Part shown: one piece after another, positions 3,709 to 29,800 of the stretch
Layout: the number at the start of each line of letters is the position of its first letter
Numbering within the stretch: the first letter of the stretch is position 1
Source of the DNA: Candidatus Zixiibacteriota bacterium
GTDB taxonomy: Bacteria > Zixibacteria > MSB-5A5 > GN15 > JAAZOE01
NCBI GenBank assembly: GCA_030668485.1
Contig: DAOUTW010000018.1
Coordinates: forward strand, 1 to 64,000
Direction: 5' to 3'
Length of the DNA stretch: 64,000 nt
Program-made: the position numbers and the translations under genes
Notes under the pieces: generated by a model
What the model was told of the DNA's origin: nothing
Databases searched by the model: none
Seen by the model: only the letters and a program-made list of their open reading frames with translations

Positions 3709-5314
3709 CAAGAAAACTTCATTAAAAGACTTTTCGCAGAAGGAAGGTCAGCTCGTCAATTTGGACGCCTCCAAGTTTTTACCGCTGCCTCCTCCCTATG
3801 ATAAAATCGAGGATTTGCCCACGATAAAACCGCTTTCGGAAAGTGCGCAGGAGAAATACGAGTGCGACCTCGACGGCATAACCGCGTTCAAATTCCCCCG
3901 TCCGGAGACTGACGAAGAGAAAAAGGAAATGATCGAGAAATTCCTCTCCGGCCTGCAGAAGCTATTTGACAGAGAGGACAACTGGACTTTCATGCAGCCG
4001 CTTTTCCTGACGATGGAATATTGCGCCAAATGCCAGACCTGTTCGGCGGCCTGCCCGGTGTACAAGGAATCCGGAGGGATCGATATCTATCGTCCCACCT
4101 ACCGCAGTGACATTCTCCGACGCCTGTACAAGAAATATGTGAAAGGCGGCGGCAAGTTTTTCTCGAAAATCTCCGGCAATGATATCGATGTCACCTGGAG
4201 GATGATCGCCCGTTTGATGGAATTGTCGTACCGCTGCACCATCTGCCGGCGCTGCGCTCAAACCTGCCCGATCGGCGCCGACAACGGCCTCGTGACTCGC
4301 GAACTGCGCAAGATTTTCAGCCAGGAGATGGGCATCGCCGTCGAACCTCTCCACAAGAAAGGTTCCGTGCTGCAACTGCAATCGGGATCATCGACCGGCA
4401 TGACCCCGGCTGCCTATCTTGACAATATCGAATTTCTGGAAGAAGAAGTCGAAGAACGGGTCGGGATGAAATTCAATTGGCCGATGGATAAGGAAGGGGC
4501 CGATATCCTTCTGATCCACAATGCCGGCGAATTTCTGGCCTGGCCGGAAAATCCGGAAGCGTTCGCCATCATCCTTGAAAAAGCCGGAATCAGTTATACT
4601 TTGTCGAGCGAACTGGTTGCCTACGACGGTGTCAACTACGGCGTCTGGTACGATGATGTCCAGTTTGCCAAAGTTGCGCTGAAACATCTTGCGGTAGCCA
4701 AGAAGCTTGGCGTCAAGAAAATCGTCCTCGGCGAATGCGGCCATGCTCACAAAGCCCTGACGGTCATCGCCGACCGCGTCATGCCGGGCGAATTGAATGT
4801 CCCCCGCGAAAGCTCCGTTACCCTGCTTCGGGATATTATTAAGGAAGGCCGCCTCAACCTCGATAAATCTCGCAATGACGAATACCATGTCACCTTGCAC
4901 GATCCCTGCAACATGGTTCGCCTGATGGGTATCGTCGAACCGCAGAGGGAGATACTGAGAGCGGTGGTCAATAACTTCCGTGAGATGGAGCCGCACGGCG
5001 TACACAATTATTGCTGCGGCGGCGGCAGCGGCTTTGCCATCACTCAGGATTTGAACTTCCCCGACTGGCGCCATGCCCTCTCCAGCCGGATCAAAATGCG
5101 CCAGATTCTTGACACCTATCAGGACATTATTGGACCGGAGCACAAGAAGTATGTTTGCGCTCCCTGCTCCAACTGCAAAGGGGCTATCCGCGATATGTTC
5201 GTCGCGTATAATACATTCGAACGCTGCAACATGTTGTATGGAGGTCTGGTGGAATTGATCGTCAACGCCATGACCGATTTCGACAAGGAATATATTGAAT
5301 GGGAATGGCATTAA
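3701..5314 (+). CDS. Fe-S oxidoreductase, HdrD/DsrK-like
   Basis: Two ferredoxin motifs (CAKCQTCSAACP, CTICRRCAQTCP) and CCG-type motifs (NYCCGGGSGF, CAPCSNC). Confidence 0.85.
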   Translation: MSNKKTSLKDFSQKEGQLVNLDASKFLPLPPPYDKIEDLPTIKPLSESAQEKYECDLDGITAFKFPRPETDEEKKEMIEKFLSGLQKLFDREDNWTFMQPLFLTMEYCAKCQTCSAACPVYKESGGIDIYRPTYRSDILRRLYKKYVKGGGKFFSKISGNDIDVTWRMIARLMELSYRCTICRRCAQTCPIGADNGLVTRELRKIFSQEMGIAVEPLHKKGSVLQLQSGSSTGMTPAAYLDNIEFLEEEVEERVGMKFNWPMDKEGADILLIHNAGEFLAWPENPEAFAIILEKAGISYTLSSELVAYDGVNYGVWYDDVQFAKVALKHLAVAKKLGVKKIVLGECGHAHKALTVIADRVMPGELNVPRESSVTLLRDIIKEGRLNLDKSRNDEYHVTLHDPCNMVRLMGIVEPQREILRAVVNNFREMEPHGVHNYCCGGGSGFAITQDLNFPDWRHALSSRIKMRQILDTYQDIIGPEHKKYVCAPCSNCKGAIRDMFVAYNTFERCNMLYGGLVELIVNAMTDFDKEYIEWEWH

Positions 5315-5336
5315 GCCGTCAGGAGGGATTATATAT

Positions 5337-5711
5337 ATGGCTAAGAAAATACTTATCGTGGATGATGAGGAAGATCCCAGGACATACCTCGAAGTCCTCT
5401 TTCAGGATAACGGTTACGAAACCAAATGTGTGACCGATGGCGACGAAGCGCGTGCGGTGGTCAAAGACTATATGCCCGATCTGATCACGCTGGATATCAT
5501 CATGGAGCGGGAAACCGGTCAGAAGTTTTACCGCTGGATGCAGGATGACGAGGCGTTGAAGAAAATTCCGGTGATCATCTGCAGCGGCGTGACGCGGTAC
5601 AAAGAACTGTTTTCGCGCGATCATCTGAAGATGCCGAAACCGTTCTTTTTCGTCGAAAAACCGATCGACCGCCAATTGATGCTCGACAAAGCCAAAGAAG
5701 CGATGGGATAA
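5337..5711 (+). CDS. Single-domain response regulator
   Basis: Receiver domain MAKKILIVDDEEDPRTYLE...DLITLDII...ICSG...FVEKPID. The internal Met of the 5295 ORF is the likely start. Confidence 0.85.
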   Translation: MAKKILIVDDEEDPRTYLEVLFQDNGYETKCVTDGDEARAVVKDYMPDLITLDIIMERETGQKFYRWMQDDEALKKIPVIICSGVTRYKELFSRDHLKMPKPFFFVEKPIDRQLMLDKAKEAMG

Positions 5712-5719
5712 AGCATATC

Positions 5720-5760
5720 CCGGCGGGTCACAATTCGCAAAGCGAATCAAGACCCGCCGG
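5720..5760. repeat. Nested hairpin repeat, copy 2 (may also act as terminator after the response regulator)
   Basis: CCGGCGGGTC ... GACCCGCCGG outer stem; inner ATTCGC-AAA-GCGAAT. Confidence 0.75.
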
Positions 5761-6507
5761 AACATTATTGATCGGATTCCTCGCCACATGCGAGGAGCCT
5801 GACTTATCCCTCCCCCACGATATATCTGCTGTTCTAGATTATACCACATATTGCGTTATTGTTTTAGCTGACACCACATCATGTTGATCTTAAATCGGTA
5901 AAATTCGGTGTAAGCTATCACCTCCTTTATAGTTATGAAGAATTGGCTTTGAATTGTACAAAAAGGGTGGCGGGGGCCACTTTTTGGCTGTCGCGGTGGC
6001 AGGTGCAACTTTTGTGAGTTTATGATTCTTATTTATCGGCATTACTCATCTCCCTTTTGGTTTTCTACTAATGGGAGATGATTCTGGATTAGCATCGATC
6101 CTATGTTGATTTTGTGGCAAAAGCCACTTTTGGGCTGTCGCGTGGATAAGTTATTCCAGTACATGAATCCGAAAGATGGGTGGCCTGCATCTTTAGAACG
6201 TGTTGAAAAAGTCGGCATGAGTCATTAATGGCCCATTTATTACTAACAGAGATGAAATTACTCCATTACTATGATAGAGTATAGATCGCCACGTCGCCCC
6301 CGGCGGACGATGGGTGAAGACTAGATGCCCGGTCGTCATGATCAAAATGATTGAGCTTCATGATGAGATTATTCCCAATAGAACCGGAATCGTCAACCAC
6401 AAATTAGCGCAACGAGATGCCCCCAAAAAACCACCCGCCGTCGCATCCGCGAACTCTGGGTGGGGTACTCGGTAAAGCGCGATCAGGGATTGTTTCGTGA
6501 CCGATCA

Positions 6508-24603: not shown

Positions 24604-25346
24604 TGCACCGTGATCGGGCCGGTCGAGGAGCCGGTGATGAATTGTTTGACAATGGCGTTATCGGTTTGCCGGATCTGGTCCGGAGTTCCATCCCAGACGA
24701 TTTTCCCCTCATAGAGCATGATTATGCGGTCGGCGATTTTGTAGGCCGAAGCCATGTCATGGGTGACGGCAATCGAGGTCACACCCAGTTTCTTATTGAC
24801 ATCGACGATCAGCTCATTGATCATATCGGCCGAAATCGGGTCCAATCCGGTGGTCGGTTCGTCATAAAGAATGATATCGGGTTCGGTAGCGATTGCCCGT
24901 GCCAGAGCGACTCGTTTTTTCATCCCGCCGGAAATTTCGGATGGCATCTTATGCCCGACATCTTTCATACCGACCAGCGCCAGTTTTTCTTCGGCAATCT
25001 GTTTCACCTGTTGCGGTTTCATATGCAGGCTTTCCTTGAGACAGAAGCCGATATTCTCGGCCACCGTCATCGAATCAAAAAGCGCCCCGAACTGAAAGAG
25101 CACCCCGACTCGTTTGCGGAAATCCATGAGGTCAACATGCTTCAACTCAAAAACATTCTGACCATCGACCACCACGCTGCCCTCATCCGGACGTAGCAAG
25201 GCGATAATATGCTTCAACAAAACCGACTTGCCACATCCCGACTGTCCGATCACGACCACCGACTCGCCCTTTTGGATTTCGAGGTCGATGCCGGTGAGGA
25301 CCTCCAGCCGGCCAAAACTTTTCTTTAAATTCTCAACCTTTATCAT
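24600..25346 (-). CDS. ABC transporter ATP-binding protein (MlaF-like)
   Basis: GQSGCGKSVLL, SGGMKKRVALARA, ILYDEPTTGLDP. Confidence 0.9.
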   Translation of the reverse strand: MIKVENLKKSFGRLEVLTGIDLEIQKGESVVVIGQSGCGKSVLLKHIIALLRPDEGSVVVDGQNVFELKHVDLMDFRKRVGVLFQFGALFDSMTVAENIGFCLKESLHMKPQQVKQIAEEKLALVGMKDVGHKMPSEISGGMKKRVALARAIATEPDIILYDEPTTGLDPISADMINELIVDVNKKLGVTSIAVTHDMASAYKIADRIIMLYEGKIVWDGTPDQIRQTDNAIVKQFITGSSTGPITVH

Positions 25347-26125
25347 ATTCTAAACAACAAAGTGGCCATGATATAGTCGGCAATAAGGACCATCACCGCC
25401 GAGCTGACCACCGCCCGGGTTGTCGACGCACCTACTCCCTGCGCGCCGCCGGAGGTGAAAAATCCGTGATAACAGCCCATCATCGAAATGATTGCCCCGA
25501 ATGCAGTCGCCTTGATCAGGCCGGAGAAAAAGTCGGATAACGTGAAAAGCTGTTTGAATCCGTTCATGAATGTTTCGGTCTCAACCCCGATCAGGCTGAC
25601 GGCCACGAGCAGGGCGCCGAAGATGGCGATGAAATCGGCCAGCGCGGTGATTATCGGGAGCATGATAATACCGGCGGCGAAACGAGGCATGACCAGATAT
25701 CGGATCGGATCGACCGACATCGATTCCATGGCGTCGATCTGTTCGGTTACTTTCATTGAGCCGATTTCGGCTGCGATACCTGCGCCGACGCGTCCTGCTA
25801 TCACCAGCGCCGTCAAAACCGGCGCCAATTCGATCAGAACCGCCTTGCCGACCGCTCCCCCGAGATATCTGATTGGAACATAATTTTTAAACTGGTAGGC
25901 CGCCTGCCAGGCCGAAACGCCTCCGGTGAAAACCGAGGTAATCATGATCAGCCAGATCGATTTGACTCCGATATGATACATCTGGTTGACGACCAGATGA
26001 AGCGAGGAGAAGAAATATCGGAACGCCAGCAGCGTTCGTCCCAGCATGAGGGACAAGCGCCCCAGGCCGCTGATAAGGGTCGTTGGCCTCAGGTCAAAAA
26101 CCGGTGAATGTTCGTCCATATTCAA
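25343..26125 (-). CDS. ABC transporter permease (MlaE-like)
   Basis: AELGTMKVTEQIDAM-type motif (AAEIGSMKVTEQIDAMESM), six-TM pattern, paired with the MlaF-like gene. Confidence 0.88.
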   Translation of the reverse strand: MNMDEHSPVFDLRPTTLISGLGRLSLMLGRTLLAFRYFFSSLHLVVNQMYHIGVKSIWLIMITSVFTGGVSAWQAAYQFKNYVPIRYLGGAVGKAVLIELAPVLTALVIAGRVGAGIAAEIGSMKVTEQIDAMESMSVDPIRYLVMPRFAAGIIMLPIITALADFIAIFGALLVAVSLIGVETETFMNGFKQLFTLSDFFSGLIKATAFGAIISMMGCYHGFFTSGGAQGVGASTTRAVVSSAVMVLIADYIMATLLFRI

Positions 26126-26146
26126 TGTTACCGGACCAGTTTAGAG

Positions 26147-26216
26147 TGTTTGGCCACAATCAAAGACTAATCGCTGCCGGACACAACTAAATAATCGAGA
26201 AAATGATATTGCGTTA
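26147..26216. repeat. 70-bp direct repeat, copy A (flanks the Fic gene)
   Basis: tgtttggccacaatcaaagactaatcgCtgccggacacaactaaataatcgagaaaatgatattgcgtTa. Confidence 0.95.
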
Positions 26217-26293
26217 GGGGGGGTATGGCATTCTCAGAATGATTATTGGGACCGTTACCGGTGATTATCCAATCAATAGGCAAATAAAAACTT

Positions 26294-26327
26294 ATGATAT
26301 GATGATGATGATGATGATGACGATGAC
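26294..26327. repeat. (ATG/GAT)n microsatellite
   Basis: atgatatgatgatgatgatgatgatgacgatgac. Confidence 0.8.
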
Positions 26328-26503
26328 GGTGGCGGCAGTAACTGGATCGATATTGCCATTTAAATTGGCATTACTTCACTTGAAATTATTTGTCATTTTT
26401 CCCGCATTGAGTCGTGTTTATGACTTAAACACAACAAAATCACGTGTCGAATTAAGCGACATTCATCGACACGTATACTCAATGTGTCGATACTGTCGAC
26501 ATG

Positions 26504-27589
26504 TTATTTTGACAATAAATTATAAAGTTTGATGTTTAAATACAGGGTTTCCTTACCGATTATTTTGGATTTCAAAATACCGATTTTTTCAACTTCCTTG
26601 AGGTAATCAGCTGCTGTTTGGCGTTTTGCAATACCTCCATCTACCAGGAAACTACCTTTTGTATAGGGTTGCCGAAATAGGATTTCTATTAACTCTTTGG
26701 AATAAACCCTACTTGGCAGTCTTCGCCTTGCATCTTCCATCGTTTCCAACATTAAATCACGAATATCGAGAATACGCCTTCGAGTAATATGAGCGGTTTT
26801 TTCGATGGCTTCCAGCATATAGAGAATCCACGATTCCCAATCGCCCTTTTCGGTAACCTTTCTGAGAAGCCGGTAATAGTCACTCTTGTGCTCAATGATG
26901 AAGTGACTTAAATATAGAACGGGTAAATCCAATAATTTATGAAGAACAAGAAAAAGGATATTGATGATACGTCCTGTGCGCCCGTTACCGTCAGAGAACG
27001 GGTGGATTGCTTCAAATTGATAATGAATTATAGATAGTTTAATAAGCGGATCGATGCCTGTTTCCTCGTGTATGTACTCTTCCAAGTTTTTGAGTTTGTC
27101 ACGGATAATTAATTCACCCTCTGGTGGTGTATATACTATTTCGTCTGTTGCAGGATTCATCAGGTTTGTACCTGGAGAACGGCGAATCCCCGCCTGATTC
27201 TTGGTGATAGTCTGAACGATTTTAATGAAAAGATTAGTCGAGAGAACCGCTTTCTCCCTCATTGAATTATAACCATTCCAAAGCGCCTCACGATACCGCA
27301 AGACTTCCTTTGTTGCTGAGCCCACTTGGCTCGTATTAGCGGTGATCGCTTCGAAGAGAGAATCGTTAGTCGTTATAACGTTTTCAATCTCTGAACTAGC
27401 TTTGGCTTCTTGTAGTAATACTGTGTTAATAAGCAACGCTTGATCGGGAATCGTTTCGCCCAACCCCTTCAACTCTGCCAAAGCGCGACTTGCAGTTATG
27501 GCGCGCCTAAGTACAACGGCAGTCTCTATTTCTTTTTTTGGGGGCAACAAGGGAAGGTCGTTGAATGGTCTTTGAGGATTAAATTTCAT
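26504..27589 (-). CDS. Fic family protein with wHTH-like C-terminus (putative AMP transferase)
   Basis: Fic motif HPFSDGNGRTGR; N-terminal inhibitory-helix-like SSEIEN matching (S/T)xxxE(G/N). Confidence 0.92.
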   Translation of the reverse strand: MKFNPQRPFNDLPLLPPKKEIETAVVLRRAITASRALAELKGLGETIPDQALLINTVLLQEAKASSEIENVITTNDSLFEAITANTSQVGSATKEVLRYREALWNGYNSMREKAVLSTNLFIKIVQTITKNQAGIRRSPGTNLMNPATDEIVYTPPEGELIIRDKLKNLEEYIHEETGIDPLIKLSIIHYQFEAIHPFSDGNGRTGRIINILFLVLHKLLDLPVLYLSHFIIEHKSDYYRLLRKVTEKGDWESWILYMLEAIEKTAHITRRRILDIRDLMLETMEDARRRLPSRVYSKELIEILFRQPYTKGSFLVDGGIAKRQTAADYLKEVEKIGILKSKIIGKETLYLNIKLYNLLSK

Positions 27590-27683
27590 GGCACATAATT
27601 CCTTATTATCATAACAATAAATCTTGGGGGAGGCTTCAAGTCAATCATAATCTCTGTACTGCGGGCAACGCTATTTCTTGATA

Positions 27684-27753
27684 TGTTTGGCCACAATCAA
27701 AGACTAATCGGTGCCGGACACAACTAAATAATCGAGAAAATGATATTGCGTCA
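27684..27753. repeat. 70-bp direct repeat, copy B
   Basis: Identical to 26147-26216 except two substitutions (C/G and T/C). Confidence 0.95.
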
Positions 27754-27792
27754 AGGAATTGCAATTACAGACCCACACACTATTTGCGAGGA

Positions 27793-28011
27793 TCAACGCC
27801 CTACCGTTATAGATGTCCCCAACCAGAATCCGATTATCGCGCCAATGAGACCAAAAGCAAACTGCTTCTCAGATTGACCATAATCCAGTGACAAAATAAT
27901 CCATAAAGACGCGAAAAGCAGAATGAGGGATATGACAACCCGCATTATAATTGCAATGTGACTAAAGGCGAAATTCAACATCCATTTTATATCGTTGAAT
28001 TTAATACCCAT
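27793..28011 (-). CDS. Small membrane protein, hypothetical
   Basis: 72 aa with two predicted hydrophobic segments. Confidence 0.45.
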   Translation of the reverse strand: MGIKFNDIKWMLNFAFSHIAIIMRVVISLILLFASLWIILSLDYGQSEKQFAFGLIGAIIGFWLGTSITVGR

Positions 28012-28284
28012 AACAATACTCCGTCGAGTAAAACTTTCTCACCTTATTTAATTGTCATTGGGTTATAATTGTATATAGCTGTCGAAATTAAATTTGTCAA
28101 ACATATTTAGGCACTTTTTTCAGAAAGTTTTTCTCGTTGCTCCACAACGAGTTACGATAACGGCAAAAAATAGTTTAAATTTTTTATATTTTTACGGCAA
28201 AAAACCCACAAATTAGCACTGCCAATAAGGTATTTCGATCACAAAAGGCCTTATCCCCTTCGTCTTCATAGCCTAATGCCGAAT

Positions 28285-28359
28285 GTTTTTGTGGTTGGTA
28301 TACGTCTCGTGCACCAACAAAGAAAGTTGGCAGACGAGACGTCCGCCAGCCACAAAAAT
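28285..28359. repeat. Large imperfect inverted repeat
   Basis: Arms gtttttgtggttggtatacgtctcgtgcaccaac and gttggcagacgagacgtccgccagccacaaaaat, 7-nt loop. Confidence 0.75.
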
Positions 28360-28375
28360 CAACATCCATAATTTT

Positions 28376-29800
28376 CTAAAACGGCGATGATGCTTCCGGG
28401 GGTTCTACCGGGCCGGACATTCCTGCTGCCAGGTTTTCGAACCGGGCGAATTCCTTGAGGAACGACAAGGTCACGGTTCCGGTCGGGCCGTTACGCTGCT
28501 TGGAAATAATAATTTCAGATTTCCCTTTGGACTCAAGAAACTTGGGATCATTCTGATCGAGATGCGACAAATAATATTCCGGGCGGTAAACGAACATCAC
28601 CAAGTCGGCGTCCTGCTCGATTGCACCCGATTCTCTCAGATCGGATAGCTGCGGCCGCTTGTCGCCGCCGCGCTGTTCGACCATACGAGATAACTGGCTG
28701 CAGGCAACGACCGGTACGCTCAATTCTTTGGCCAGCCCTTTTAAGCCCCGCGAAATCTGCGAAATTTCCTGCTGGCGGTTTTCCGATCGGCGGCTGCCGC
28801 TCATCATCTGCATATAGTCGATGATAACCAGTCCCAGATCAACCTGCGATGCCAGCCGTCGCGCCTTGGCTCTCATCTCGAGCACCGTCATCGCCGGAGA
28901 ATCGTCGATATACATCTTGGCTTCGGCCAGCGGTCCGCCGAATCGTCCCAGCCGTTCATAATCGGTTTCCGACAGGCGACCGGTGCGCAATTTATGAGAC
29001 GAAATCCGGGCACGACCGCAAATCATTCGCAAAGCCAGTTGTTCCTTTGACATTTCCAGAGAGAAAAACGCTGCCGCTTTGCCGGTTTCGAGACAGAAAT
29101 TTTCAGAGAGATTAAGGGCCAGCGCCGATTTTCCCATCGACGGACGACCGGCGACAATGATCAAATCGCCCCGATGAAACCCCGCGGTCAAGGCATCGAG
29201 ATCCTTGAAACCGGTCGGGAAACCGACCAGGCCTCCCTTGGTGTCTTTGTATTCCTCGATCGCCTCAAACGTTCGCGGCAGCAGATCCTTGACGCTGGTG
29301 AAATCAGATTTCAGGCGGTCTTCGGAAATCGCAAAAATCTTCTGTTCCGCCGCATCCAGCAGATCATCGACATCCTCTTCCTGACGGAAACACTGTCCGA
29401 TAATATCTGATGAGGCGGTGATAAGGTCGCGCAAGGTCGCTTTTTCGAGGACGATATTGGCATAATATTCGGAGTTGGCGGCTGTCGCCACACCGCTGGC
29501 CAGTTCCGTCAAATAGGTACGACCGCCGCAATCGTCAAGATCACCGGCGCGTTCCAATTCCTCCGCCACCGTTGTAATATCTGCCGGCTGAGAATGCTCA
29601 TAAAGGCCGATCACGGCATCGAAAATTTTCCGGTGTGAGGGAGCATAAAATCTGCGGCTGCTACCGAGAGCCTCGACCGCTTTGGCAATCGCTCCCTGAT
29701 CTATCAGCATCGCGCCCAGCACCGCCTGTTCGGCATCATGCGAATGAGGCGGAGTGTGTCCCGTGCGTTGCTGGCTATTTGTCTTTGTTGATCCGTTCAT
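28376..29800 (-). CDS. dnaB: Replicative DNA helicase
   Basis: PPHSHDAEQAVLGAML, GRPSMGKSALALN, VIIDYMQMM, DLRESGAIEQDADLVMFVYR. Confidence 0.95.
   Translation of the reverse strand: MNGSTKTNSQQRTGHTPPHSHDAEQAVLGAMLIDQGAIAKAVEALGSSRRFYAPSHRKIFDAVIGLYEHSQPADITTVAEELERAGDLDDCGGRTYLTELASGVATAANSEYYANIVLEKATLRDLITASSDIIGQCFRQEEDVDDLLDAAEQKIFAISEDRLKSDFTSVKDLLPRTFEAIEEYKDTKGGLVGFPTGFKDLDALTAGFHRGDLIIVAGRPSMGKSALALNLSENFCLETGKAAAFFSLEMSKEQLALRMICGRARISSHKLRTGRLSETDYERLGRFGGPLAEAKMYIDDSPAMTVLEMRAKARRLASQVDLGLVIIDYMQMMSGSRRSENRQQEISQISRGLKGLAKELSVPVVACSQLSRMVEQRGGDKRPQLSDLRESGAIEQDADLVMFVYRPEYYLSHLDQNDPKFLESKGKSEIIISKQRNGPTGTVTLSFLKEFARFENLAAGMSGPVEPPEASSPF

Follow-up and report, generated by a model that had tools for sequence, protein, structure and literature searches.

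How did a single foreign fic gene, enclosed by two near-identical long direct repeats, come to lie inside a conserved bacterial operon? The locus falls in a 64,000-nucleotide stretch of a Candidatus Zixiibacteriota genome, referred to here as the window. To our knowledge, the means by which SoFic and other solitary defence genes move in the absence of a recombinase are not settled. Near-identical long repeats at this locus, their enrichment at other Fic genes, and occupied and empty sites for one phage together make this question testable by comparative genomics.

The repeat pair

Repeat copies A (26,147–26,214) and B (27,684–27,751) lie on the minus strand in direct orientation, and their 68-bp cores are identical at 67 of 68 aligned positions. 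Realignment confirmed the 68 of 70 match and the period of 1,537 bp reported by the initial annotation for 26,147–26,216 and 27,684–27,753, and a longer alignment, to 26,219 and 27,756, retains 70 identities in 73 bp. The longest perfect stretch shared by the copies is about 40 bp, and the probability that a 67/68 match arose by chance is negligible. Between the repeats are 1,464 bp (26,220–27,683), made up of fic and flanks of 284 and 94 bp. The repeats do bracket a Fic gene, as first described, and fic (26,504–27,589) is the only gene that they enclose.

The pair is unique to this locus. A search of the whole 4.51-Mb, 139-contig assembly finds these two copies only, which excludes the possibility, raised at the outset as one that would count against an insertion, that the 70-mer is a common dispersed repeat. 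Among 60 relatives, the only match to the repeat is a chance-level one of 31 nt in G035, and viral contigs contain no exact 26-mer match to it. A scan for direct repeats with at least 40 matching bases, 0.4–6 kb apart, covered 357 kb of the genome sampled as 20 stretches; judged by their sequence, the other pairs look like repetitive coding sequence or members of dispersed families.

An assembly or binning artefact that linked fic to the locus through the repeat deserves almost no credence. The assembly is a draft of 139 contigs; however, the repeat copies differ from each other, the locus is far from the ends of its 69-kb contig, and both flanks keep the conserved operon order. Since a duplication made in assembly would be exact, the one internal mismatch also speaks against that origin.

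As DNA, the repeat folds no better than shuffled sequence (z-scores 0.4 to 1.6). An Rfam search returned no family at gathering score, and its sole match up to E = 1 is a sub-threshold miRNA on the palindrome at the dnaB end of the insertion. A structured RNA was rejected on these grounds.

An insertion between dnaB and mlaE

The order on the minus strand is dnaB, o72, copy B, fic, copy A, mlaE, an mlaF-like ABC-type ATP-binding gene, radA, and tgt, with the names radA, tgt, and dnaB assigned from sequence. The replicative helicase gene dnaB (28,376–29,800, minus strand) and the permease gene mlaE (25,343–26,125, minus strand; probable ATG at 26,119) belong to the host operon and flank the inserted DNA on its upstream and downstream sides, respectively. 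The nearest named relative of MlaE belongs to an 'FCB group bacterium' (79%), and Candidatus Zixiibacteriota comes next.

The 26 related loci examined come from two collections and may count the same genome twice in some cases. Every one of them has dnaB and mlaE side by side on one strand, with no more than about 50 bp from the dnaB stop to the mlaE start. The distance is 2–15 bp in the 24 loci where a start codon was found; in the remaining two, alignment to MlaE starts 11 and 29 bp past the dnaB stop. Neither fic nor either repeat lies between dnaB and mlaE in any of the 26. Here the gap is about 2.25 kb, and the 2,250 bp from 26,126 to 28,375 are therefore a lineage-specific insertion, with a G+C content of 39.7% against 54% in the flanking genes. 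The lineage-specific insertion of a SoFic-type gene is a real and well-supported observation. Of the insertion by recombination that the initial annotation proposed, the insertion stands, since relatives have neither fic nor repeats at this point and the gene is foreign; the mechanism at this locus is one that we infer.

The likely coding content of the insertion is fic and o72 only, and no transposase, integrase, or recombinase gene was found in it. The o72 gene (27,793–28,011, minus strand) encodes a probable membrane protein of 72 amino acids and has a Shine-Dalgarno-like GGAG upstream. It matches no Pfam or NCBIfam family and has no homolog in 60 relatives, so it was dropped as a clue to the origin of the insertion. 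At the dnaB end, directly after dnaB, is a 73-bp palindrome (28,286–28,358; folding z-score −6.5 as DNA) of a dispersed family with several further matches in this genome and others in G002, G003, and G004. A different dispersed repeat of the window consists of GGC(A/G)xxxGCC...TTTTTGGCTGTCGCG units, some in tandem (1,671–1,742, 1,910–1,945, 5,965–6,000, and 6,112–6,147), and also occurs in L302 around 5,259–5,985. The interval between fic and copy A holds an ATG/CAT trinucleotide microsatellite at 26,291–26,330, and just past the 3' end of fic, at 26,443–26,503, four TGTCGA/TCGACA half-sites cluster in what may be a binding site. The same operon carries another insertion of 1.45 kb in a family relative (G001; L120, 9,921–11,367), between mlaF and radA, with a membrane ORF and a probable SAM methyltransferase gene and without long flanking repeats.

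The comparison also bears on the origin of the repeat. The suggestion that it duplicates a leader or promoter which the mlaE operon had ancestrally was rejected, because relatives have only 2–15 bp between dnaB and mlaE and no leader there; copy A can only be, at most, a new mlaE leader gained with the insertion. Family relatives checked for a single-copy empty site have no repeat at all, so the repeat came with the same or an earlier insertion and is not demonstrably a host target.

It is unlikely that the repeat is a promoter or operator duplicated to stand before both fic and mlaE and so restore expression of the cut operon. The arrangement is suggestive: both copies have the same orientation and each lies 5' of a gene, copy A about 27 bp from the mlaE ATG and copy B 94 bp from the start codon of fic, and the insertion parts mlaE from its ancestral operon. 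However, sigma-70-like sites in the insertion show no excess over shuffles, on which ground a sigma-70 promoter within the repeat was also rejected; there is no conserved fold; and relatives lack the repeat. A functional duplication is nevertheless compatible with a long target duplication, and the two are not exclusive.

The fic gene and its product

The fic gene (26,504–27,589, minus strand) encodes a 361-residue protein of the SoFic type with Fic_N, Fic, and SoFic_C domains, and it has a Shine-Dalgarno-like AAGGA upstream. In alignment, the Fic active-site motif HPFx[D/E]GN[G/K]R is present as HPFSDGNGRTGR, and the inhibitory motif [S/T]xxxE[G/N] is present as SSEIEN, which we take to be a self-inhibitory motif of the kind found in class II Fic proteins. 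The PADLOC SoFic profile matches over its full length (residues 14–360; 377.6 bits, E 1.8e-113), and the NCBIfam SoFic equivalog NF046030 scores 479.5 bits, under its cut-off of 550. On these matches, the protein is classed as a SoFic-type relative and not as the named NF046030 equivalog. The closest solved structures are 9vjc and those of SoFic, 3eqx and 3zcn.

The best match within its own phylum, among 133 genomes, reaches only 34–36% identity, whereas matches outside the phylum reach 56% in the unrelated genome G377 and 56% in an IMG/VR contig. This difference (36% at best against 56% elsewhere) indicates that fic was acquired horizontally.

SoFic-type Fic AMPylases are a known family of anti-phage toxins. 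SoFic is reported to be an abortive-infection toxin that AMPylates its targets, and in E. coli a 47-amino-acid antitoxin, AS1, is encoded downstream of it (PMC12249575). The gene described here resembles that system in its full-length match to the PADLOC model, its Fic_N/Fic/SoFic_C domain order, its active-site motif, and its status as a solo gene. It differs in that about half of its residues depart from those of close homologs, in its score below the NCBIfam equivalog cut-off, and in that no convincing AS1-like ORF was seen downstream of fic. By family membership, the gene most likely encodes an AMPylating toxin that inhibits itself and acts against phages by abortive infection.

Mode of insertion

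Insertion sequences and transposons also place foreign DNA between direct repeats. Target-site duplications made by transposases span about 2–14 bp, however, and the 68-bp repeat is far longer; in addition, the insertion lacks a transposase gene. Integron cassettes consist of a single gene between direct repeats, and attC sites range from about 55 to 140 bp, which includes the length seen here. Unlike attC sites, the repeats have no R''/R' hairpin ends (their ends are not complementary) and no stem, there is no integrase, and only two copies exist.

The initial annotation had offered an att-like duplication or a gene cassette, and neither an att site nor an attC cassette was upheld: there is no recombinase gene, no fold above shuffles, and no third copy. 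It is very improbable that the repeats serve as att or attC sites for a small cassette that integrates with a recombinase encoded elsewhere. Such a cassette would fit the direct orientation, the 68-bp length, and the single gene between the copies, and some plasmid SoFic relatives adjoin an integrase or recombinase. It fits poorly with an insertion without a recombinase, with the absence of attC-like ends or a stem (the z-scores of 0.4 to 1.6 given above), with two genomic copies only, and with the repeats at other fic genes, which are unrelated in sequence and range from 43 to 297 bp.

Insertion with long target duplication was described from a comparison of restriction-modification genes in two Helicobacter pylori strains (Nobusato et al. 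2000, Gene 259:99–108, as cited in PMC3031569, PMC1643837, and PMC4978471), and a passage of PMC3031569 characterizes the duplications as long and variable and as found with all types of restriction-modification systems. The dnaB–mlaE locus shares with those cases a small, foreign, potentially self-serving unit, long direct repeats of variable length, an insertion relative to relatives, and an insert without a transposase or integrase. The cargo differs, being a SoFic-type fic here and restriction-modification genes there, but this is a feature of the known examples and not of the mode. Unlike the two-strain comparison in H. pylori, the comparison here is with relatives from outside the genus, which lack the repeat.

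By analogy with restriction-modification genes, the foreign SoFic-type fic at dnaB–mlaE was probably inserted with a long target duplication. Under this reading, fic would have come to lie between dnaB and mlaE either within the larger AT-rich insertion or along with it. The arrangement before its arrival would have been o72, a single repeat, and mlaE, and the second repeat copy would have arisen at insertion, when about 68 bp of neighbouring DNA were left on both sides of fic. Recombination between the copies could plausibly remove fic again. The mode would then be a known one that carries a new cargo: the scar is known for restriction-modification genes, and fic would extend its range if the proposed mode is right. 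Targeted literature searches found no earlier report of a long-duplication scar for Fic genes.

Long repeats around other fic genes

Loci with fic homologs, taken from IMG/VR and from whole genomes, were surveyed for similar repeats. In a first pass requiring at least 25 matches, with random intervals as controls and the window included, 6 of 108 fic loci were bracketed, compared with 8 of 1,232 intervals. A stricter pass required at least 30 matches in the 600 bp to either side, excluded the window, and used real ORFs as controls; it found 5 of 82 fic ORFs bracketed and none of 170 further ORFs from those loci (Fisher p 0.003), an enrichment that is supportive and not definitive because the threshold was altered between the passes. 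Two of the five bracketed genes (L159 and L165) are near the SoFic type, and the rest belong to other Fic subfamilies.

The bracketing repeats at these loci are unrelated sequences of 43–297 bp with periods of 1,458–2,167 bp. In all three cases read closely, the repeat is DNA of a neighbouring gene. In a phage contig (L149/L165), it consists of the final 61 codons of the tape-measure gene; in G324, of a whole yciI-like gene; and in the Zixibacteria genome G033, of a 43-bp palindrome that lies beside the end of the neighbouring gene and recurs on the far side of fic.

The phage case includes both an occupied and an empty site. Phage L149 has the order tape measure, repeat, fic, repeat, parDE, and its relative L271 has the tape measure, a single repeat, and parDE without fic. 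When the insert and one repeat are removed from L149, its flanks align with those of L271 over 1,449 columns with 14 gap columns, and the end of the tape-measure gene is single-copy in about 20 relatives of L149. The comparison demonstrates occupied and empty states of one site for a fic insertion whose repeat is 183 bp long. The L149 copies differ by 8%, and 11 of the 15 nucleotide differences fall in synonymous codons, which suggests that a related phage, and not duplication at insertion, may have been the source of the second copy.

In G324, the yciI copies that flank fic are 10% divergent, and an adjoining helicase island is likewise bracketed by pieces of yciI. The copies and fragments extend over 2,779–17,135 of L280, where they bracket fic, the island of about 11 kb, and a further segment; the island has ZorD/DpdE-, DpdF-, and GajB-like matches. 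This pattern suggests repeated insertions at one target. An empty site was sought in three family relatives, none of which carries the locus.

These diverged copies give some weight to a different origin of the pair in the window, in which the incoming fic DNA already carried a homolog of the repeat, its other side was joined illegitimately, and the copies descend from two parents. The mostly synonymous divergence in the phage and the yciI pieces around both fic and the helicase island are what such an origin would leave behind. It is a doubtful possibility for the window itself, where the copies differ at just 1 of 68 non-coding positions, so that the parents would have been nearly identical, and where no donor was found.

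Long target duplication is the preferred reading for the dnaB–mlaE locus, and if it is correct, this mode would extend from restriction-modification genes to Fic toxins. As a generalization across Fic genes, it is a lead that has moderate evidence behind it. Its broadest form is offered tentatively: SoFic and related Fic toxin genes might make up a general class of minimal units, free of any recombinase, that move into genomes and phages and leave long (about 40–300 bp) duplications of adjacent DNA, a mobility mode shared with restriction-modification systems and perhaps with other solitary defence toxins.

Ten plasmid and phage SoFic loci were read separately, and two more have long repeats, which lie farther away. 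In the plasmid locus of Mesorhizobium loti (L287), long direct repeats at 640–1,013 and 4,416–4,787 bracket an integrase gene together with fic, and in that of Ilyobacter (L282), repeats at about 800, 4,174, and 5,902 bracket SoFic and a second Fic gene. The junction after the tape-measure gene also holds another insert of about 840 bp in L258 (4,966–5,809) and L274 (509–1,352), and it looks like a hot spot for cargo.
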